33,376 nt of DNA from a virus. Position 1 is the first letter of the stretch. Each line of letters begins with the position of its first letter. A program made the translations under genes and the position numbers. The DNA lies in IMG/VR virus record IMGVR_UViG_3300037042_002495, positions 1 through 33,376 of that record; one strand, given 5' to 3'. Positions 930 to 32,858 of the stretch are shown piece after piece. The notes beneath the pieces were generated by a model. The model was not told where the DNA came from. It searched no databases and saw nothing but the letters and a program-made list of their open reading frames with translations.

Positions 930-937
930 ATAAATAC
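930..937 (-). promoter_or_regulatory. RTATTTAT late-promoter candidate for the gene at 919
   Basis: GTATTTAT on the minus strand, 10 bases before the ATG at 919. It forms a perfect 8-bp inverted repeat with the plus-strand copy at 949-956. Confidence 0.5.
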
Positions 938-948
938 ATTAAAACGAA

Positions 949-956
949 GTATTTAT
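949..956 (+). promoter_or_regulatory. RTATTTAT late-promoter candidate for the gene at 970
   Basis: GTATTTAT on the plus strand, followed by TG and an A-rich leader, 13 bases before the ATG at 970. Same 8-mer as at ten other gene starts in this window. Confidence 0.5.
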
Positions 957-969
957 TGATAAAAAAGAC

Positions 970-1809
970 ATGATTAATTTTAATGAAGAATACTTTAGTA
1001 ACAATTGTTATTTTTTTCTTAAGGAGAGAGAGGATAAAATATCTTTATACTATTCTGTCGCAGATACTTTAACGGAATCAAGAAAGAAAGACGATAAAAA
1101 AGATTTTAAAAAGAAGGATTTAAAAAAAGTTAAAAATATTGTGAATAAATTTTTATCATCGAAAGAAAAAGTAACTAAAAAAGATATTGATAAGGAATTA
1201 TCTAACGTATCCTCGTCAGGCGAAATTGAGGAGTTAATTGATTCTGAGGGGGGTCTTTTAAACACAAGAACACCGTATTTAAACATGACGTTACATCCTA
1301 GAAAAACAATGGACCAAACGGTAACAATGACAAGAACATCTAATGACCCTATAACAAGAGGTTATCGAGTTTATTATGGTGAAAACAAAGAAAACAAAGG
1401 TAATGTTGTGTCTGAAATAGATTATTCTGACGCATTTGGATTTGAAGAGACTGAAGATATGGACTTTAAAAATACTGTTAATACACTTAAAAAAATGGGT
1501 GTTGAGAATCCTGTACATAGAGCAAAAGAATTGGGTAAATTACCTAAAGCAAAAAAACGAAACGGTAAATTAAGACAACGACTATCTGAAAAAGATAGTA
1601 TTGAAGAACAAGAAAGAAAAAAAATGGTTAAAATGGTTGAGGATATTTTAACAAAAAAATCCAATAAAGATTCTGACATTTTAAAAAAGGATAACAATAG
1701 TAGTGTTAGTAAATTTTTAATCAAAAACCTACAATCAATAAAAAAATTAGCGGATAAAGAAGGAATAAGTATCTCTAAATTAATTAATATTTTAAAGACA
1801 AGTGAATAA
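970..1809 (+). CDS. Unknown lysine-rich phage protein
   Basis: A 279-residue protein without a family I recognise. It starts MINFNEEYFSNNCYFFLKE, then has a strongly basic and acidic stretch at residues 38-70 dominated by Lys and Asp. A Thr-rich middle follows (NTRTPYLNMTLHP, TMTRTSNDPITRGYRVYYG), then a Lys-rich C-terminal half that looks helical. No membrane segment or signal peptide is visible. It leads a five-gene plus-strand block to 3549, overlaps the next gene by 8 bases and has a late-type motif upstream, so a virion or assembly role is the best guess. Confidence 0.8.
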   Translation: MINFNEEYFSNNCYFFLKEREDKISLYYSVADTLTESRKKDDKKDFKKKDLKKVKNIVNKFLSSKEKVTKKDIDKELSNVSSSGEIEELIDSEGGLLNTRTPYLNMTLHPRKTMDQTVTMTRTSNDPITRGYRVYYGENKENKGNVVSEIDYSDAFGFEETEDMDFKNTVNTLKKMGVENPVHRAKELGKLPKAKKRNGKLRQRLSEKDSIEEQERKKMVKMVEDILTKKSNKDSDILKKDNNSSVSKFLIKNLQSIKKLADKEGISISKLINILKTSE

Positions 1810-2272
1810 AGATTTATACGGACATAAGGTTTCCTTACCTGAGGATGTTATCAATTATTTGGGTCAATGTTTTGACGCGGCTAAAGATGCCAACGAAAAT
1901 ACCGAAGGGTATAAAAGAAACAAAGACCTGAGAGATAGTAAAGAAGTGACCTATCAACAACTTAAACGAATGAAAAATTGGTTTGATGATTTTAATGGAC
2001 ATGAGAATGAACTTTCTCATATATTGAATGGTGGTCATTATGTTAAAGGTTGGGTTAACACCACCTTAGATTCTATGAGAGATAGTGTTCATAACACAAA
2101 ACAAAATAAATCGGTAGTGTTACCCAATCAATTTATCCAACCACATGAAAAGAATGGTATAAATGATATGAACAGACCTACTAAAAGTCATAAAACAAGT
2201 ATTGGTGACTATGATTTACAAGTCACTGAAAGCCTAAAAAGAATAAACAACCTAATAAAAAAAATAATGTAA
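1802..2272 (+). CDS. Unknown phage protein, GTG start
   Basis: A 156-residue protein. The frame opens with GTG at 1802, inside the last codons of the previous gene, and the next in-frame Met is about 57 residues in, so GTG is the probable start and translation is probably coupled. Visible landmarks are MKNWFDDFNGHENE and GGHYVKGWVNTTLDSMRDSV in the middle, and a basic C-terminus (LKRINNLIKKIM). It is soluble and probably helical. I do not recognise the family. Its position in a block with a late-type promoter motif suggests a structural or assembly protein. Confidence 0.75.
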   Translation: MNKDLYGHKVSLPEDVINYLGQCFDAAKDANENTEGYKRNKDLRDSKEVTYQQLKRMKNWFDDFNGHENELSHILNGGHYVKGWVNTTLDSMRDSVHNTKQNKSVVLPNQFIQPHEKNGINDMNRPTKSHKTSIGDYDLQVTESLKRINNLIKKIM

Positions 2273-2273
2273 T

Positions 2274-2570
2274 ATGGCAACAACAGAACCTTTAAATTTT
2301 TCTCAACCGAAAAATGACTTAACGTCAATCGCTGAAATGGAAAGAGCGAAACTTATTCCTAAAAATGATTATAAACAAAAGGCTTTCGAGTACTCTTCAG
2401 TTAATCCTGACGCAATTGCTGATGGTGACGCTCAAGGTAAAGGTACTGGAGGTGATTTAGATGTGTATAATCAAAATGCGGGAGCAATCCAAGATATTCT
2501 TGAGAGAAAAGCGGAAACCGTAATTAATGAATATCAACCTAACAAACCGTACACAACACCAAGTGCATAA
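2274..2570 (+). CDS. Small unknown protein, likely disordered
   Basis: A 98-residue protein beginning MATTEPLNFSQPKNDLTSI. It is hydrophilic and rich in Asn, Asp, Gly and Pro, with a Gly-rich centre (DAQGKGTGGDLDVYNQ), so it is probably partly disordered. It begins one base after the previous stop and its stop overlaps the ATG of the WYL-domain gene, so the genes form one operon. No family recognised. Confidence 0.7.
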   Translation: MATTEPLNFSQPKNDLTSIAEMERAKLIPKNDYKQKAFEYSSVNPDAIADGDAQGKGTGGDLDVYNQNAGAIQDILERKAETVINEYQPNKPYTTPSA

Positions 2571-2974
2571 TGAAACTTTACAACATAACAAAATCCCTTA
2601 TTTTAGAAGTAGCATCAATTGAATCTATCGTTGACGCTATTAAAAAAAGACACAAAATAGTGATTTATTATGATGGTGATGAACCAGGGGGTAGAGGTTT
2701 GAGAGAAATTGAACCCGTTTGTCTTGGTTACAGTAAATCAGATAATCCTGTTTTACGAGCATGGGATATCGAAGGGTCTTCCCATACTTCATATAAAGGG
2801 GAACAACCTCTTCCTGGATGGAGATTATTTAGGGTAGACAAAATTCTATCATTTAAACCTTCTGGAGAACAATTCAACGAACCAAAACCTAACTATAACC
2901 CAAATGGGGATAGAAGTATGAATAGGGTAATAATTAATGTTACTTTTGATAATAGACAAGAACAAAACGTTTAA
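2570..2974 (+). CDS. Stand-alone WYL-domain protein with short leader
   Basis: The 134-residue protein carries a single WYL-like domain. After MKLYNITKSLILE, residues 18-105 give the typical pattern: RHKIVIYYDG (first strand), LREIEPVCLGYS, then VLRAWDIEG and WRLFRVDKILSF, where the WYL fold has a conserved aromatic/Arg core and the closing F-R-x-D-K/R-I motif. WYL domains usually sit behind a helix-turn-helix in ligand-sensing regulators or in defence and CRISPR accessory proteins. No DNA-binding domain is attached here. The leader ends I-L-E, which fits a prohead protease site, so packaging in the head is conceivable. The domain call is sequence recognition; function is open. Confidence 0.65.
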   Translation: MKLYNITKSLILEVASIESIVDAIKKRHKIVIYYDGDEPGGRGLREIEPVCLGYSKSDNPVLRAWDIEGSSHTSYKGEQPLPGWRLFRVDKILSFKPSGEQFNEPKPNYNPNGDRSMNRVIINVTFDNRQEQNV

Positions 2975-2976
2975 AT

Positions 2977-3549
2977 ATGACAAATGAAAATGAATTAATA
3001 CAAAAACTAATGGCCTCCAAAAAAATAATGGAGCTACATGGACAAATGCCAAGAAATGGTACTCAAGGTAGTGTACTTACCTCACCTATGGTAGAAGACT
3101 ATTCTGCTCCCGCAGCAAAATATAATTTACCTTCTGATATGTTACAGGAAAGTAATATACCAATGAATAACCCAAGTCCTCAGATGGCGACTAAGGACAG
3201 AATCATGTCCTCAAAATTACCTGACGAGATTAAAATGTTAATGATTGAACACCCAATCCAACAACCTGATTCAATGTCAGGACCCTCATTATCAAAGGAA
3301 TTAGTTGAGAGGGCTTCTAGGTTAATGAATAAAGGTAATAGTGAGCCAACAAGACAACAAACAAGTCAACCTCAACCATCCGTAAACAATGATTCATTAA
3401 GACAAATGATGAGAGAAGTCGTTTCGGAAGTTTTATCTGAAAATGGATTATTAGTTGAATCGGTAAGTAAAACAAATGATATTTTTTCTTTCAGAGTTGG
3501 AAAACATATTTTTGAAGGAAAAGTGACAAAAATTAAAAAAGTTCAATAA
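2977..3549 (+). CDS. Unknown virion-type protein
   Basis: A 190-residue protein. The N-terminal two thirds is Met-, Pro- and Gln-rich and probably flexible (SNIPMNNPSPQMATKDR, QQTSQPQPSVNNDS). A helix near residue 140 (LRQMMREVVSEVLSENG) leads into a short beta-rich C-terminus (FSFRVGKHIFEGKVTKIKK). L-S-E and L-V-E tripeptides at the junction resemble prohead-protease sites, but such tripeptides are common. It is the last gene of the 970-3549 operon and is followed at once by a strong terminator. No family recognised. Confidence 0.75.
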   Translation: MTNENELIQKLMASKKIMELHGQMPRNGTQGSVLTSPMVEDYSAPAAKYNLPSDMLQESNIPMNNPSPQMATKDRIMSSKLPDEIKMLMIEHPIQQPDSMSGPSLSKELVERASRLMNKGNSEPTRQQTSQPQPSVNNDSLRQMMREVVSEVLSENGLLVESVSKTNDIFSFRVGKHIFEGKVTKIKKVQ

Positions 3550-3566
3550 CTAAAATTATAATATTT

Positions 3567-3597
3567 AAATCCTCACCTAACAGTGGGGATTTTTTAT
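3567..3597 (+). terminator. Rho-independent terminator after the 970-3549 operon
   Basis: A ten-pair stem (AAATCCTCAC with GTGGGGATTT, one G-T pair), six-base loop CTAACA, then a T-rich run. It separates the first operon from the glycosyltransferase at 3656. Confidence 0.85.
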
Positions 3598-16670: not shown

Positions 16671-17474
16671 ATGGAAAAATTTGATGTATCGGTAATACTA
16701 CCAATTAAATCGTCTAAAGCAAATGGATTTGCCGAATATTTTGAAAAAGCAATCACATCTCTTAAAAACCAAACAAAAAAAATTAATGAACTAATAATTG
16801 TTCATACTGATGAAACATCTTTAGTTGAGTTTTTAGGTAGTTTTGATTTTGGGGATTTAAAAGTAAATAAAATTGTTTGGACTAAGGACCCTAATTTCTC
16901 AGAACAAGTGAATCACGGTGTTAGGTTGTCAGAATCTAAATGGATTTCATTATTTGAATTTGATGATGAGTATTCAAACATTTGGTTTAAAAATGTTGAG
17001 AAGTACACAATTGCACATCCTGAAGTTGACGCGTTCTTACCTATCGTTATTGATACGGATGAAAAAGGTCAATTTGCTGGATTTACAAATGAGGCGACTT
17101 TCGCATTAAATATTGCTGCGGAAATGGGAATCTTAAGTAATGAAACCCTTCAAACATATCAAAACTTTCAAATTTCAGGAATGGTTATTAAAAAATCATC
17201 ATTTGTTGATTTTGGGTTATTAAAACCGTCTTTTAAATTAACCTTTGGTTATGAGTTCTTTTTAAGAATGACAAATAATTCGGTAAAAATTATGTCAATT
17301 CCTAAAATTGGTTATAAACATATTAATTTACGTGAAGGGTCAATTTTTTGGAACTATAAAAATGGTGATAATAATCTAACCGATGAAGAAATTAGATTTT
17401 GGGTGGAGTCAGCGAAAAAAGAATATTTCTTTATCAATGATAGAGCCATAAAGTATGAACCCCAAACAATTTAA
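16671..17474 (+). CDS. GT2-type glycosyltransferase
   Basis: A 267-residue protein. FDVSVILPIKSSKANGF is the GT2 first strand, with a helix (AITSLKNQTKKINELIIV) that is standard for the family. WISLFEFDDEYSNIWF near residue 91 carries the acidic metal-binding motif as FDDE. GMVIKKSSFVDFGLLKP and FGYEFFLRMTN near residue 195 stand where GT2 enzymes place the E/D-D base. Its stop overlaps the ATG of the late sigma factor by one base, which ties glycosylation to the timing of late functions. Confidence 0.8.
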   Translation: MEKFDVSVILPIKSSKANGFAEYFEKAITSLKNQTKKINELIIVHTDETSLVEFLGSFDFGDLKVNKIVWTKDPNFSEQVNHGVRLSESKWISLFEFDDEYSNIWFKNVEKYTIAHPEVDAFLPIVIDTDEKGQFAGFTNEATFALNIAAEMGILSNETLQTYQNFQISGMVIKKSSFVDFGLLKPSFKLTFGYEFFLRMTNNSVKIMSIPKIGYKHINLREGSIFWNYKNGDNNLTDEEIRFWVESAKKEYFFINDRAIKYEPQTI

Positions 17475-18223
17475 TGAGCGAAATATTAATTTTATCAGGT
17501 ACGACAGATACAAACTTAAAAAAGAAAGGTAGAAAACCAAAACAAGCAAATTATTTTGATGTCAGAGAAGAAACGGCCGTGGTAAAATTTTTATTAACCG
17601 AATCCTCAGAAGAAAAAAATAAAATTTACAATGAGTTTTTGAGAAACCCTTTAGACAAGATGATTTCCTCAATTATTAGGAGATATAAATTGTATCGTAA
17701 AGATATGGACTTCATAGAAATCCACACTGACACACATTCTTTTCTAATGACAAAAATAGATAAGTTTAAACCCGAAAAGGGAAAAAAGGCTTACTCATAC
17801 TTTGGAACTATTTGTAAGAATTATCTAATGGGTCAGATAATAAAAGACCAAAAAGAAACTAATCGAAAAATTTCATACGAAGATATATCATCTAGTCTTG
17901 AAAACAATCCTGAATTTTCGTACCTAATAGATGGAGATTCCGTTGACTCGGAACAAATAATTAAAAATTTCTTAAAGGAATTAGATAAATTTTTAAATGA
18001 GGAAACTTTAAACGAAAATGAAATTAAGTTAGGTCACGCATTATACGATTTATTCAATGATTACGAAAACATTTTTATTGGGGCATCAAATAACAAATTC
18101 AATAAAAACATAATACTCTTGTCCCTAAGAGAAATGACAAATTTATCAACAAAAGAAATACGTAGTTCTATGAAGAAATATAGAATAATTTATCTTAACC
18201 TAGTTGAGAAGATGGCTCAGTAA
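17474..18223 (+). CDS. 55: gp55-like late-transcription sigma factor
   Basis: A 249-residue protein resembling T4 gp55, the small sigma that directs host RNA polymerase to late promoters with the clamp and gp33. LDKMISSIIRRYKLY and THSFLMTKIDKFKPEKGKKA then YSYFGTICKNYLMGQIIKD give the region-2-like helices seen in T4-type gp55 (K-F-x-P, then A-Y-S-Y-F and N-x-L). A C-terminal SLREMTNLSTKEIRSSMKKY looks like a helix-turn-helix. It is placed directly before the virion gene run, where short RTATTTAT motifs occur. Family assignment is by pattern. Confidence 0.75.
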   Translation: MSEILILSGTTDTNLKKKGRKPKQANYFDVREETAVVKFLLTESSEEKNKIYNEFLRNPLDKMISSIIRRYKLYRKDMDFIEIHTDTHSFLMTKIDKFKPEKGKKAYSYFGTICKNYLMGQIIKDQKETNRKISYEDISSSLENNPEFSYLIDGDSVDSEQIIKNFLKELDKFLNEETLNENEIKLGHALYDLFNDYENIFIGASNNKFNKNIILLSLREMTNLSTKEIRSSMKKYRIIYLNLVEKMAQ

Positions 18224-24654: not shown

Positions 24655-25128
24655 ATGAAAAAAATATTTAAACAGTTATATGTTAAATGGTCGAAAATAT
24701 TTAAACGGTTATATGTTAGATGGGCGATTTGGACTCGATATACAGGTCTAAAACCTATGGAACAAACAACCGATAACCAAAGAATTTGTTTGGGAATTTG
24801 TCGGTCTTTAATAAACCACCCAAATTCAAAATTCCTTATTGCCCCATTATCTAGAGAACGTTATATTAAAAACTCTGAATTAGGATTATTTGTTATTCTT
24901 GACGATAGACGTATTAGTGTTACAAATCATGTGTACCATTATGACGTTTCATTGTATGACAGAGAATGGGATAGATTAACAAGGATGTACGATAATAAGA
25001 CAGAAGTTATACGTCAACAATATAAAGAGGAGGTTAAATCTCAAATCAAACACTCTTTACGTACCATTTTAGATAAAATAGAATCTTTAGAGAGATTCCC
25101 TCAAGACCCCCTTGATAAAACTCCTTAA
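24655..25128 (+). CDS. Unknown early-type protein with duplicated N-terminal helix
   Basis: A 157-residue basic protein. The N-terminus repeats KIFKQLYVKW / KIFKRLYVRW, encoded by a 30-base direct repeat (24661-24690 and 24694-24723, two mismatches, period 33). It looks amphipathic. The body (GICRSLINHPNSKFLIAPLS, then LFVILDDRRISVTNHVYHYD) has no recognised domain, and the C-terminus is a long charged helix. It has a host-type promoter, unlike its late-type neighbours, so it may be expressed early and act on the host. Its last 42 bases overlap the opposite-strand gene ending at 25087. Confidence 0.75.
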   Translation: MKKIFKQLYVKWSKIFKRLYVRWAIWTRYTGLKPMEQTTDNQRICLGICRSLINHPNSKFLIAPLSRERYIKNSELGLFVILDDRRISVTNHVYHYDVSLYDREWDRLTRMYDNKTEVIRQQYKEEVKSQIKHSLRTILDKIESLERFPQDPLDKTP

Positions 25129-25749
25129 CGGATTTTCTTCCACAGGTAGTATTTCAATCCACTCATTAACAGTATGAACATCGTGTTCAGGAGTATTGTA
25201 AGACCCATCAGAATTTTTTTCCCAAACACCAACAACTTTTCTAATATTGTTTTTTAATGTTTTTTGTTTTTTCTTATGGTTAAATTCAGTATCAACAAAC
25301 TCTTGGAATGGCCCTAAATGTTCTTTCCTCCATTTTTTTAGTCCAAGCTCTATAGGACCATTATACACTCCTGACGTGATTGTTGTACCCGCTTCTTTAA
25401 TTGGAACTATTTTAACACCTTTACCAGGAGTTTGATTAATATTATTACCATCATCATCACTCAATGTTAAGTTAGGATGTTTCTTAAGATAGTCAGATTC
25501 TTTCTTAGCTTTACGTTCAATCTTAGAGGTTTGTTTTTTAGGTAAACTCATCTTACCATCGTAACTATCATATGACAACATTGCGTCATTATACTTCGAT
25601 ACAGGGACATTAAAAGGTTGTAAGGCAGTTTTATCAAACTCCTTTATTCCAGGTCGCATAGGACCAACGTATGACCCTCTACCACCACTATCACTTGTCG
25701 CCTCTTTGATGAGTTCTTGCTTTACCTTGTTTAAAATATCTCTTAACAT
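25087..25749 (-). CDS. Internally duplicated protein with two IKE/A sites, possible head precursor
   Basis: A 220-residue protein. The leader MLRDILNKVKQELIKE is followed by ATSDSGG, very like the capsid protein site (LINE/ATSEGSS). A second IKEA is at residues 117-120. Each is followed by the same pattern: G-x-Y-x-G-P-x3-G-x-K, then L-x-P-F and V-x3-(Y/F)-N (residues 25-54 and 127-157). This suggests a tandem duplication, and perhaps processing into two similar mature pieces. Between them is a Lys-rich linker. Its own RTATTTAT motif is 23 bases upstream. It is convergent with and overlaps the gene at 24655. Confidence 0.7.
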   Translation of the reverse strand: MLRDILNKVKQELIKEATSDSGGRGSYVGPMRPGIKEFDKTALQPFNVPVSKYNDAMLSYDSYDGKMSLPKKQTSKIERKAKKESDYLKKHPNLTLSDDDGNNINQTPGKGVKIVPIKEAGTTITSGVYNGPIELGLKKWRKEHLGPFQEFVDTEFNHKKKQKTLKNNIRKVVGVWEKNSDGSYNTPEHDVHTVNEWIEILPVEENPLRSFIKGVLRESL

Positions 25750-26091: not shown

Positions 26092-26685
26092 TTAATCTTC
26101 TGGATTGACCTCTTTTGTTGCAACTGATACGACAGGTGTTGTAGTTGCTGCTGGCGCCGCTGCCGCCGCTGCTGCCGCTGCCGCCGCTGCCGTTTCCTCA
26201 GTTCCTGACGGAGTTGTTGTGGCGATATTTGCTCCACCTAAAAGACTTATAATACCATTAAGAGTTAGTTTACCCATAACGCCATCAACACCATCTCCAC
26301 CCTTTCCTGTGTTACCTATATTAATCTTTTTTTCTTTTAACTTTTTTTGGATATCCATTACAAGTGGATTAGGCGCAGACTGAACAGGTTTTTGTACCTC
26401 AGGATTTGTGGAGGAGGGACAAGTATAAGGTTCTGTGACGGTTGAACCTTCCTTGGTCTTTTTACCATTACTATAATAGACATTGCCCTTAATTATGTAC
26501 ACGGTAGTCCCGTCTTCTAGTTTTTGTTTTTCTGCCCCCTGGAAATCTCTTATACATGGGTATTTTTCCCATTTTGCCTTATCGGCGTCTTCTTCTTCTT
26601 TAAGATATTGTCTTTTGGTCGCATCTTTATGAAGATTTAAAATTCTATTTGATTCTTCTTCATTTAAAAAATATAATTTTTTCAT
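26092..26685 (-). CDS. Peptidoglycan-binding-like protein with leader and poly-Ala tail
   Basis: A 197-residue protein. A leader of about 30 residues (MKKLYFLNEEESNRILNLHK, then QYLKEE) ends near L-K-E sites. YTCPSS marks the end of a short Cys-containing part (PCIRDF upstream). Residues 106-148 (NPLVMDIQKKLKEKKINIG, then GVDGVMGKLTLNGIISLL) fit the PG_binding_1 pattern of L-Q-x-x-L, D-G-x-x-G and T-x-x-A/G-I. A run of about 12 Ala and Thr/Pro follows, in GC-rich codons unlike the rest of the genome. It may bind cell wall at entry or lysis. Its late-type motif is 19 bases upstream. Confidence 0.7.
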   Translation of the reverse strand: MKKLYFLNEEESNRILNLHKDATKRQYLKEEEDADKAKWEKYPCIRDFQGAEKQKLEDGTTVYIIKGNVYYSNGKKTKEGSTVTEPYTCPSSTNPEVQKPVQSAPNPLVMDIQKKLKEKKINIGNTGKGGDGVDGVMGKLTLNGIISLLGGANIATTTPSGTEETAAAAAAAAAAAAPAATTTPVVSVATKEVNPED

Positions 26686-26766: not shown

Positions 26767-26880
26767 GTGATTAAGGGAAACAATTAAGATACAGTTAATC
26801 ACAACGGGTTAGAACGAAACAATCCTAACTTATCGGGTGGAATGGAAGACGATTCAGATACAACGTCCACCCCTTTTTTA
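26767..26880 (+). ncRNA. Putative structured small RNA with three hairpins
   Basis: There is no plausible gene on this strand, but an exact host-type promoter sits just upstream. The predicted RNA of about 113 bases has three stems. P1 is GTGATTAA (26767-26774) with TTAATCAC (26795-26802), eight pairs, loop 20. P2 is GGGTTAG (26806-26812) with CTAACTT (26825-26831), including two G-T pairs. P3 is GGGTGGA (26835-26841) with TCCACCC (26866-26872), followed by six T, so P3 is also the terminator. The T run overlaps the stop of the minus-strand gene at 26878, so a short antisense contact is possible. It is not tRNA-like. Function unknown. Confidence 0.65.
26835..26879 (+). terminator. Terminator of the small RNA
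   Basis: Seven-pair GC-rich stem (GGGTGGA with TCCACCC) with a 24-base loop, then six T at 26874-26879. Confidence 0.7.
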
Positions 26881-27294
26881 TCTCCACAAAACCAATTGAT
26901 TTTTACCAACTCTAAACGGATTACTTTCAGACTCTCTAAAGGCAGTACTAAATAATAATGTCCAACTTGAACCCCCATTATGTGTTGGTATAATTGGTAA
27001 AGCCAACTCCCACTTATTTGATTTAATCACAAAAGCGTCACCATCATTAATTTCACGGTAAACAATTCTTTCCGCAATCTCTCTAACAAATAAGGCAACA
27101 AATTCTTTTACCTCTAAATTAGTAATTTCTCGTTGGTTATACGTATCGTTTAATTCAGGTCTTGTTGACCTATCAGAAGAATGTGCCGTTCTAGAAACTT
27201 CAAAATTGAACTGAGTTTGTATCTCATGCACAATTTGAGCAATTCTCTTTTCTAATAATAGATTCTCCTTAATTAATTCTCTTAAATCATTCAT
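26878..27294 (-). CDS. Unknown protein with IKE-type leader
   Basis: A 138-residue protein. The start MNDLRELIKENLLLEKR resembles the processed leaders of neighbours (L-I-K-E). The body has HSSDRSTRPELNDTYN, EVKEFVALFVREIAER and DAFVIKSNKWELALPI, then FRVGKNQLVLW at the end. The H-x3-R-x3-R opening and closing strand recall small RelE-like or phage-specific folds, but I cannot assign a family. The late-type motif is only five bases upstream. It is convergent with the small RNA. Confidence 0.65.
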   Translation of the reverse strand: MNDLRELIKENLLLEKRIAQIVHEIQTQFNFEVSRTAHSSDRSTRPELNDTYNQREITNLEVKEFVALFVREIAERIVYREINDGDAFVIKSNKWELALPIIPTHNGGSSWTLLFSTAFRESESNPFRVGKNQLVLWR

Positions 27295-28181: not shown

Positions 28182-30074
28182 TTATCTCAATTCTCTTAAA
28201 TCGAATGTTCTAACACCATCTACAGTAATTCTTCCGTAAAACCGGTTATTTACCATTTTTTTCGCGTATCTCGTCATTATTCCTTTAATCGGAGTAAAGT
28301 TGAACGGATTGTACATTGTAGGTGTTAATTGTAATGGTACGTATGGTGCGTAGATGTAACCTGTGTCTAACAATGATGTTCCTTTGTGTCCAATCAAAAC
28401 TTGGTTTGGTGGAAAGTAAGGGTCACGGTAAACTTGGTAACGACCAGCTAATGTACCAACTCTTTCAATACCCATGTTGTATTGGTCTTGTTCAGGAGAC
28501 GCGTTAGATACGTGGAAGTATTCTAAATCATCAAAAATCGCAGAAACTTCAGAAGAAACAACAATCCAGTTAGCTCCACCTCTTAAAGTAGATTTGTGAA
28601 TTTGTGCTGACAACTGATTAATCGCAGTGATTAATGTTTGGTTCCAGTCTTTTTGAGTGTAGTTAGTTGTAGCAGAAATTCTTCTCCAACCGTTGTAATC
28701 CCAACGTAAGTTCCATGCTGCACCTTTACGTAAATCTCTAAGGATTTCACGGTCGATTTCAGCCGCAACTTGTTCAGACAATAAAGCCGTTAATTCAGCT
28801 TCAGCGTCGATGTTGTGGAAAGCTGCAACGTCTTGAGCTAGCTCAGGAGACCATTGTGCTCTTAATTTTCTTTCAGTAACAGAAACTGTAACAGAATCTA
28901 ATTCAAAAGAAACTTCTCCGATTTTGTCTTCAAATTCCATTTCTTTGTAACGTCTGAATACCGCAGTAAATGCTTCAGGGTCAACGTTAGCTCCAAGAGT
29001 AGTTCCTGTGTAACCATCTAAAGTATCAGAACCGCAAGTAGGACATGCTGGACATGATAAGTCAACTTCTAAATAGATACAACCTGTTGGTGAACAGATG
29101 TCATTGTATCGACCACCATTACCATCAGATGGCCAAGTAGTTTGTGCCATATTGTTTAATCCTGATACAATTCCTTGACCGTATTGTTGAGTAACAACTC
29201 TGAACAATAATGATTTAGGGTCATGAGCAGAATCAAAAGCGTTTTGACATTGTGTTGATGCAGTACTTGCAGACCATGTAGAGTCAGTATAAGTACCGTT
29301 AGCAAAAATTCTTAAATCAGATAAAAAAGTTTCAGAATCATATTCGTTACCATCAGGTCCGATTAATTTTCCTGTGCCAACATTTGCAAATCCGCACATA
29401 GAGATAATTACTTTTCTAACATTTTGACTATCAAAATCACTTCCGTTAGAATTTGTTAATGCTCCGTTACTCCAAACTTGCATAGTTGTACCAACAGTAA
29501 CTGCTGACCATTGTCCTTTAGAGTAATCGAATAAACCTGGAGGGTCTAATTGTCCTTCATTTCCTTCGTAAAATAAATCGTAAAGATTTTTCTTACCGTA
29601 AGTTGATGCAGTACCATAACCTTCACCTGCTTGTGCCTCAGCCGCAGTTAAACCACCAACCGCTCCAACTGGACCGTAGTGTGCACCTGATTCACCATCG
29701 TAAGCGTTAGCTGGTGTTTGAGCAGTTCCTCCATCATACCCTTGAATTTTAGGTACGAAGTAGAACAATTTACCGATTGGTAAGTTCATAGCTTGTACAG
29801 AAACGATATCATTCGCTAATAATTTAGAGAATACACGTCTAACGATAGGGAATACAACAGTTTCAAATGAACCTGAAGAACCTTCTGAAGTAGCTTCGTT
29901 TATTAAGTGAGACGCTTGATTCTCATATAACTGAGCTACGTTCTCTTTTAGGTGACCTCTAAGGCCTTCTAGGAATCCTAATCTATCCCATTTGTTTATT
30001 GTGTCTTCTTTGATAACTTTAAGGTGTTTTAACCCGATGTTACCGACAAGACCTGATTCTAATAATGCTCCCAT
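28182..30074 (-). CDS. 23: Major capsid protein, T4 gp23-like
   Basis: A 630-residue protein; T4 gp23 has 521. Three stretches match gp23: residues 73-106 (VVFPIVRRVFSKL, then VQAMNLPIGKLFYF); 403-445 (KLRAQWSPELAQDVAAFHNI, then DAEAELTALLSEQ and IDREIL); and 575-600 (YAPYVPLQLTP and the following GIMTRYAKK). The maturation site is probably after Glu60 (HLINE/ATSEGSS), close to T4 Glu65 (LTE/A). The region between about 110 and 375 is some 120 residues longer than in T4 and holds a Cys cluster (CSPTGC at 327-332, CPACPTC at 341-347). It forms the hexamers of the head shell. Terminator follows at 28131. Confidence 0.95.
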   Translation of the reverse strand: MGALLESGLVGNIGLKHLKVIKEDTINKWDRLGFLEGLRGHLKENVAQLYENQASHLINEATSEGSSGSFETVVFPIVRRVFSKLLANDIVSVQAMNLPIGKLFYFVPKIQGYDGGTAQTPANAYDGESGAHYGPVGAVGGLTAAEAQAGEGYGTASTYGKKNLYDLFYEGNEGQLDPPGLFDYSKGQWSAVTVGTTMQVWSNGALTNSNGSDFDSQNVRKVIISMCGFANVGTGKLIGPDGNEYDSETFLSDLRIFANGTYTDSTWSASTASTQCQNAFDSAHDPKSLLFRVVTQQYGQGIVSGLNNMAQTTWPSDGNGGRYNDICSPTGCIYLEVDLSCPACPTCGSDTLDGYTGTTLGANVDPEAFTAVFRRYKEMEFEDKIGEVSFELDSVTVSVTERKLRAQWSPELAQDVAAFHNIDAEAELTALLSEQVAAEIDREILRDLRKGAAWNLRWDYNGWRRISATTNYTQKDWNQTLITAINQLSAQIHKSTLRGGANWIVVSSEVSAIFDDLEYFHVSNASPEQDQYNMGIERVGTLAGRYQVYRDPYFPPNQVLIGHKGTSLLDTGYIYAPYVPLQLTPTMYNPFNFTPIKGIMTRYAKKMVNNRFYGRITVDGVRTFDLRELR

Positions 30075-32048: not shown

Positions 32049-32777
32049 TTATCTGTTTCCTAAATAATCGTTCAATTTCTTCATTAAGTCAAGCGATTTG
32101 TTTCCTGATTCTCCGACATGTCTTTCTACAGACATCTTTTTTTCTTCTCCAATGTTCTCATCAAAATTACCTTTATCTTCTTTATTTAAGAAAAGATAAG
32201 CTCCTGGTGTTGATGGAGAAGAAACTAAATCAAAACAAATTAATTCATAATCATTTTGTACTTCATTCTGTTCACCAATCTTTTTTAGAGACCCAACACC
32301 TCTTGATGAGATACCAAGGGTAACACCTTGTCTTAAATAGTTTGCTGCCATATCTCCTTTAGTCGATACAATTCCTCTTTCGTGGAATCCTGGACTTGTA
32401 AGTAATTTTAATTTTCCCATTAAAGTATCCCCTTCCCACCAAACATCTGTAATTAAATGTGCTACTCGGTCTAAATCAATTAATGAAGATTCGGGGTGAT
32501 TTAACTCAGATAAAGAGGTTCCTTTTTGAATTAACTTTTTATAATTTTCGGCTTCTCTTTTAAGAATTTGTTCTGGGTATACTCTTCCGTTTCTATTAGG
32601 TGTATTATATTTTTGTAAAACCGCATAAAACTCAAATGGTTTAGAATGGTCTAACATATTTGTTGATTCTAATATGTAAGAATTTTGTTCACTTTTTGGT
32701 GAAATGTATCCTGCGTCATACTCAACAAGAATTAACTTTTTATTTAGTTCATTTTTAGTATTAATATACATTGTCAT
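32049..32777 (-). CDS. 21: Prohead core protease, gp21-like
   Basis: T4 gp21-type serine protease that cuts scaffold, capsid and internal head proteins after L/I-x-E. Visible motifs are NGRVYPEQILKREAENYKKL, then LSELNHPESSLIDLDRVAHL (catalytic His in N-H-P-E-S) and TLGISSRGVG (catalytic Ser in S-S-R-G). The frame extends to a GTG at 32810, but the ATG at 32777 (MTMYINTKNELNKKLILVE) is the likelier start, giving 242 residues. The leader itself ends L-V-E, suggesting self-processing. The promoter motif is at 32859-32866. Confidence 0.9.
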   Translation of the reverse strand: MTMYINTKNELNKKLILVEYDAGYISPKSEQNSYILESTNMLDHSKPFEFYAVLQKYNTPNRNGRVYPEQILKREAENYKKLIQKGTSLSELNHPESSLIDLDRVAHLITDVWWEGDTLMGKLKLLTSPGFHERGIVSTKGDMAANYLRQGVTLGISSRGVGSLKKIGEQNEVQNDYELICFDLVSSPSTPGAYLFLNKEDKGNFDENIGEEKKMSVERHVGESGNKSLDLMKKLNDYLGNR

Positions 32778-32858
32778 TTTATTTAAATTTCCATTTATAA
32801 CCTTCAACACTTTTTCTTTTATTATTACAAACCATTCTGATTGTGTTTTGATTTATTA

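Follow-up and report, generated by a model that had tools for sequence, protein, structure and literature searches.

A stand-alone WYL-domain protein with a predicted head-targeting leader in large T4-like viruses of lake bacteria

Background

WYL domains have been studied as host sensors of single-stranded DNA (ssDNA) or nucleotides that act in DNA repair and phage defence (PMC11804915, PMC9122601). Four basic residues and a frequent cysteine have been described for the domain (PMC4012209), ssDNA is bound by the WYL grooves of PafBC, DriD and CapW (PMC11804915; PDB titles), the R211/R214 pair of PafB is required for ssDNA binding (PMC11804915), and binding of ssRNA has been reported for WYL1 (PMC11804915, PMC9122601). 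Stand-alone WYL proteins are annotated in other phages, for example ORF40 of Limnohabitans phage DC31 (PMC12195039) and BFVD entry A0A6J5RNM4, the latter of which also resembles the predicted fold of the protein described here; the text read on them describes no head leader, and their membership in the same family is at most putative. The literature gave no report in which a WYL-domain protein is packaged in the head and matured by a protease.

The second system that bears on this locus is the head of T4, where IPI, IPII, IPIII and Alt carry a short N-terminal leader ending [LI]xE. Capsid-targeting sequences in T4 are typically 10-20 residues long (PMC5694885), the cleavage site of gp21-type proteases is L/I-X-E (PMC9026906), and the internal proteins of T4 are described as highly diverse (PMC3012670).

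The window analysed here is a 33-kb IMG/VR record (33,376 nt), and it encodes a WYL protein that combines features of both systems. In keeping with PafBC, BrxR, CapW and DriD it has a WYL fold, invariant basic residues, a conserved cysteine and the RxxR spacing seen in PafB; unlike them it is phage-encoded, lacks a winged helix-turn-helix (wHTH) and has no detected WCX-type domain, its leader is of a cleavable type and its tail reads YN..GDK.M. As in T4, a predicted leader ending [LI]xE occurs in a phage that has both a gp21-type protease and a gp23-type capsid protein bearing such a site. Whilst the T4 proteins are known as internal proteins, packaging is predicted here, and the body behind the leader is a conserved WYL barrel showing high conservation rather than high diversity.

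Table 1. Features of the WYL locus and of the capsid region in the window (a slash marks a candidate cleavage site)
Feature	Position	Strand	Basis or remark
Face-to-face ATAAATA / TATTTAT pair upstream of block	930..956	.	37/37 distinct relatives; like paired T4 late boxes
279-aa co-operonic protein	970..1809	+	Candidate site TLTE36/S; Glu and P3 94% conserved, P2 variable
156-aa co-operonic protein	1802..2272	+	Candidate site QVTE143/S, conserved
98-aa co-operonic protein	2274..2570	+	Stop overlaps WYL start (TAATG)
Stand-alone WYL-domain protein, 134 aa	2570..2974	+	PF13280 above cut-off, Foldseek WYL matches, 79 distinct orthologues
Leader MKLYNITKSLILE, predicted to target the capsid; expected cut after E13	2570..2608	+	Conservation in 79 orthologues; leader swaps on other proteins
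WYL domain, aa 17-96	2618..2857	+	PF13280 profile match
R85-x-x-R88 invariant arginine pair	2822..2833	+	Spacing of PafBC pair; putative equivalence
Conserved tail motif PNYNPNGDRSM after WYL domain	2888..2920	+	YN..DKGM form common to huge-phage homologues
190-aa co-operonic protein	2977..3549	+	Conserved candidate site LLVE161/S near C-terminus
Terminator-like stem-loop, end of block	3567..3592	+	
gp23-type major capsid protein	28182..30074	-	phrog_138, alignments; conserved LINE60/A site at 29895-29906
gp21-type head maturation protease	32049..32810	-	phrog_207, E 2.4e-42

The WYL protein and its fold

The initial annotation had read this ORF as a stand-alone WYL-domain protein, and this is confirmed. 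In a Pfam profile search PF13280 matched the domain, scoring 22.8 bits where the cut-off is 21.8; the assignment appears firmer than this narrow margin, as 25 of 28 aligned family members match PF13280 singly (E <= 0.01), two PADLOC models for CRISPR-associated WYL match the protein at 1e-7, and Foldseek with an AlphaFold2 model (mean pLDDT 78.2) returned WYL proteins in all of places 1-25 among PDB entries (best E 6.5e-4). Solved structures searched by sequence, using the family profile, P0001 and YfjR, gave 0 matches and a fold search was therefore needed; its best matches are PafBC, BrxR, CapW with ssDNA and DriD with ssDNA, and the predicted structure has the Sm/SH3-like WYL fold. Searches of PHROGs and NCBIfam found no family matching the protein. 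PF13280 is the sole domain match and is preceded by just 16 residues, so that a wHTH is absent, and a C-terminal WCX-type domain was not detected.

R45, R63, R85, R88 and C51 are invariant in the family alignment, which is in keeping with the groove residues described for WYL domains, the mapping of R85/R88 and of the C51 position being putative. When aligned to BrxR with hhalign, R45 and R63 fall on BrxR arginines, at low probability and in an alignment that covers just the domain's first half. From their shared spacing we infer that R85 and R88 are the equivalent of PafB R211/R214; E. coli YfjR is without RxxR and for that reason did not serve as a reference for the motif. Given the ssDNA bound by PafBC, DriD and CapW and the ssRNA reported for WYL1, the likely ligand by analogy is either a nucleotide or a nucleic acid in single-stranded form. 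The earlier suggestion that the protein could bind nucleic acids gains backing from the predicted fold and the invariant arginines. The orthologues at L073, L078 and L236 have an additional C-terminal region of 60-90 aa beyond the WYL tail.

A predicted head-targeting leader

The ORF begins MKLYNITKSLILE, and continues VAS... beyond the predicted cut, which lies three residues ahead of the Pfam domain. Across 79 distinct orthologues residue 13 is Glu in every case, residue 11 (P3) is I or L and residue 10 (P4) L, I or V, whilst residue 12 (P2) varies between L, C, V, N, Y, T and S; in some orthologues the leader reads LINE or IINE. At 13 residues, with an L/I-x-E end, the leader is of the length and form known from T4, and its interpretation as a T4 gp21-type propeptide is well supported. 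The possible head leader in the initial annotation, noticed because the first 13 residues end I-L-E, rests on more than could then have been known, namely the orthologues, the capsid site and leader swaps.

The window and its relatives also have the machinery that such a leader would require. Each of 10 large relatives encodes the gp21-type protease, and the capsid protein reads NQASHLINE60/A shortly ahead of a conserved VRR segment. This site is in the same region as the LTE65 site of T4 gp23, with the Glu residues in different alignment columns, and the capsid proteins of cultured relatives read NQAKQIVSE/A and NQAKQLISE/A; protease and capsid protein therefore offer a cognate pair with a site of matching type. 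The WYL gene itself lies at a distance from the capsid genes, which counts against its being a head protein. Close to the capsid gene, three unannotated proteins, at 25087-25749, 26092-26685 and 26878-27294 (all on the minus strand), have the leader-like N-termini MLRDILNKVKQELIKE, MKKLYFLNEEE and MNDLRELIKENLLLE.

When 1273 ORFs, drawn from four large relatives as well as the window, were scanned for the leader motif, it occurred at E7 75 times against 9.3 expected (P=2.6e-42) and at E13 29 times against 9.3 expected (P=1.5e-7), with orthologues among these ORFs not independent; the E7 class spans 39 body clusters and the E13 class 16. Furthermore leaders are swapped on homologous bodies, the junction falling just after the Glu: in one cluster MKLIGTIKSILVE and MNLQTTIRRILRE are each followed by ES, and a second cluster carries MKLINTIIRIVNE, MNLQESIRRILRE and MKIIITELQYKLLQE. 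By this comparison leaders of this class behave as transferable modules, on other proteins of the clade rather than on the WYL body. The N-terminal rate of the motif is 11-22% in the large relatives against 6.5-8% internally and 11.9% against 6.6% in T4, with no N-terminal enrichment in the negative control crAss001 (5.2% against 7.0% internally). In T4, the positive control, the scan recovers ipII, ipIII, gp22, gp24, gp68, gp21 and alt; it also picks genes not known as head proteins, hence the precision of the motif by itself is modest and the argument depends on the conservation of the leader, on its modular exchange and on the corresponding site in the capsid protein.

In the four large relatives (L173-L231) interchangeable N-terminal leaders ending [LI]xE, for example MKIIITES, MKLxxxxKSLIxE, MNLQESIRRILREE and MKELIKKILREE, are found on dozens of unrelated and mostly unknown proteins, which constitute a candidate list of head-packaged proteins. 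Leaders of the WYL type, MKFTSLLKSIIVE and MKITKVLSNLITE, are found on proteins of 446-464 aa (L186:9751-11091 and L195:16056-17450, both minus strand) that have a C-terminal leucine-rich-repeat match below cut-off.

The operon and its neighbours

The WYL gene is one of five in a block (970-3549) flanked by the ATAAATA/TATTTAT pair and the terminator-like stem. The pair is present in 37 of 37 distinct relatives, where approximately 4.3 and 3.2 would be expected from shuffles, and its spacing is near-constant in all of them. It may represent a palindromic operator or else two late promoters that face each other, and its resemblance to the T4 late box agrees with the late-type promoter and operon initially proposed. 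Three of the four other block proteins have conserved candidate cleavage sites. Downstream, a glycosyltransferase and a dUTPase have no candidate site and an exonuclease has LVPE alone, nearly invariant. The divergent gene gives a weak match to a virion structural family, and there is a weak late-sigma match at 17474-18223. An HMM search found no counterpart of the four neighbour proteins in T4 or in huge-phage loci.

Distribution and relatives

The carrier is T4-like and large, with lake bacteria as hosts, and hundreds of its relatives have the protein too. A first scan gave 89 relatives, all phage, of which 80 were kept with identities of 66-97%, a range biased upward by selection of the loci through the WYL protein itself; a profile search of IMG/VR gave 510 matches on contigs of up to 326 kb. 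None of 181 pattern matches in bacterial genome contigs was confirmed as a cellular homologue, and the family looks to be phage-only. There was no convincing match among the cultured phage records of the phage collection, and in a search run without a control of its own the gene was not found in Flavobacterium immuto and Microcystis Mel-JY01, which are close relatives by capsid protein.

The gene is single-copy in 10 of 10 large relatives tested, and the gene order around it is identical in 160 of 160 loci, wherever the contig extends. At these loci, selected through the WYL protein, none of the other four block proteins is as conserved (median identity 72%, against 48-63% for those four). The high conservation, strict synteny and single copy suggest, for loci chosen in this way, that the gene has a core role in the phage and is not a variable gene of counter-defence.

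Divergent homologues with the WYL domain and a YN..DKGM tail are found in uncultured phages of 634-735 kb (LR745206, LR756501-LR756504). Unlike the protein described here, those read lie inside proteins of 300-418 aa, are without a leader and have a different gene context, and thus the domain can work leaderless. A leader candidate in them, VVKE near residue 20, was rejected as its Glu is not strictly conserved. In the huge-phage loci L268, L082 and L083 genes adjoining the homologue start MKHIKLFESF, MKYLKLYENF or MKYILSKKIFEN, perhaps a further class of leader, with LxE or IxE at its end.

Proposed function and alternatives

The reading that we favour, and consider probable, is that of an internal protein of the head, conserved and cut at E13, with a nucleic-acid-binding WYL barrel that probably leaves the head together with the DNA; we infer its packaging and cleavage as well as its ligand and its ejection. 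The first 13 residues would act as a capsid-targeting propeptide and direct the protein to the prohead core, where the gp21-type protease would cut after E13 and leave an intact barrel in the head. The barrel, whose groove is lined with arginines (R45, R63, R85, R88), would use them to bind a nucleotide or single-stranded nucleic acid, stay with the packaged DNA and probably enter the cell alongside it.

It is unlikely that the protein is instead a non-packaged regulator that acts late in the infected cell, for example in transcription or on replication ssDNA, with an N-terminus that is merely an additional helix of the fold. The AlphaFold2 model does, with lower confidence there, run the leader on into the first helix of the WYL domain, the huge-phage homologues manage without a leader and the majority of WYL proteins are regulators (PMC4012209). 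However, an invariant Glu with a free P2 fits a protease site, leaders of this class also sit on unrelated proteins and are exchanged at the Glu, the capsid protein has a site of the same kind, and the protein has no HTH.

Also unlikely is an assembly role, in which the protein enters the prohead and helps to build the core as do T4 gp67, gp68 and IPIII, its barrel having lost ligand binding. High conservation and a single copy would suit assembly, as would the candidate sites in its co-operonic proteins, but putative groove arginines that are invariant family-wide would be needless in a purely structural protein.

A packaged anti-defence protein, as raised by the initial annotation, would soak up or mimic the ssDNA or nucleotide ligand that activates host WYL regulators such as CapW/BrxR, or block a host enzyme like T4 IPI*, and could draw on the same leader, protease, capsid site and swaps, on IPI* as a precedent of an injected inhibitor (PMC3012670), on host WYL proteins that regulate defence systems (PMC9122601) and on the match to the CRISPR-associated PADLOC models; it is nevertheless unlikely, as no specific link to any defence system was found, the gene is single-copy, syntenic throughout and the slowest-evolving of its block, and the high diversity expected from T4 internal proteins (PMC3012670) is not seen at 66-97% identity, even if selection through the WYL protein biases that range upward. 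Such a role is possible, not indicated, and the conservation of the gene suggests a core function.

Returning to the favoured internal head protein, if packaging holds true the phage delivers a sensor-type barrel along with its genome. We give a low probability to a further extension, that the WYL protein is a conserved core member of the dozens of leader-bearing proteins and serves as a packaged single-strand sensor which intercepts, at DNA entry, the ssDNA or nucleotide signal by which host WYL regulators such as CapW switch on defence. More generally, the interchangeable leader set would give a sequence-based listing of candidate injected proteins in uncultured large phages, proteins that are otherwise accessible only via proteomics of cultured phages.
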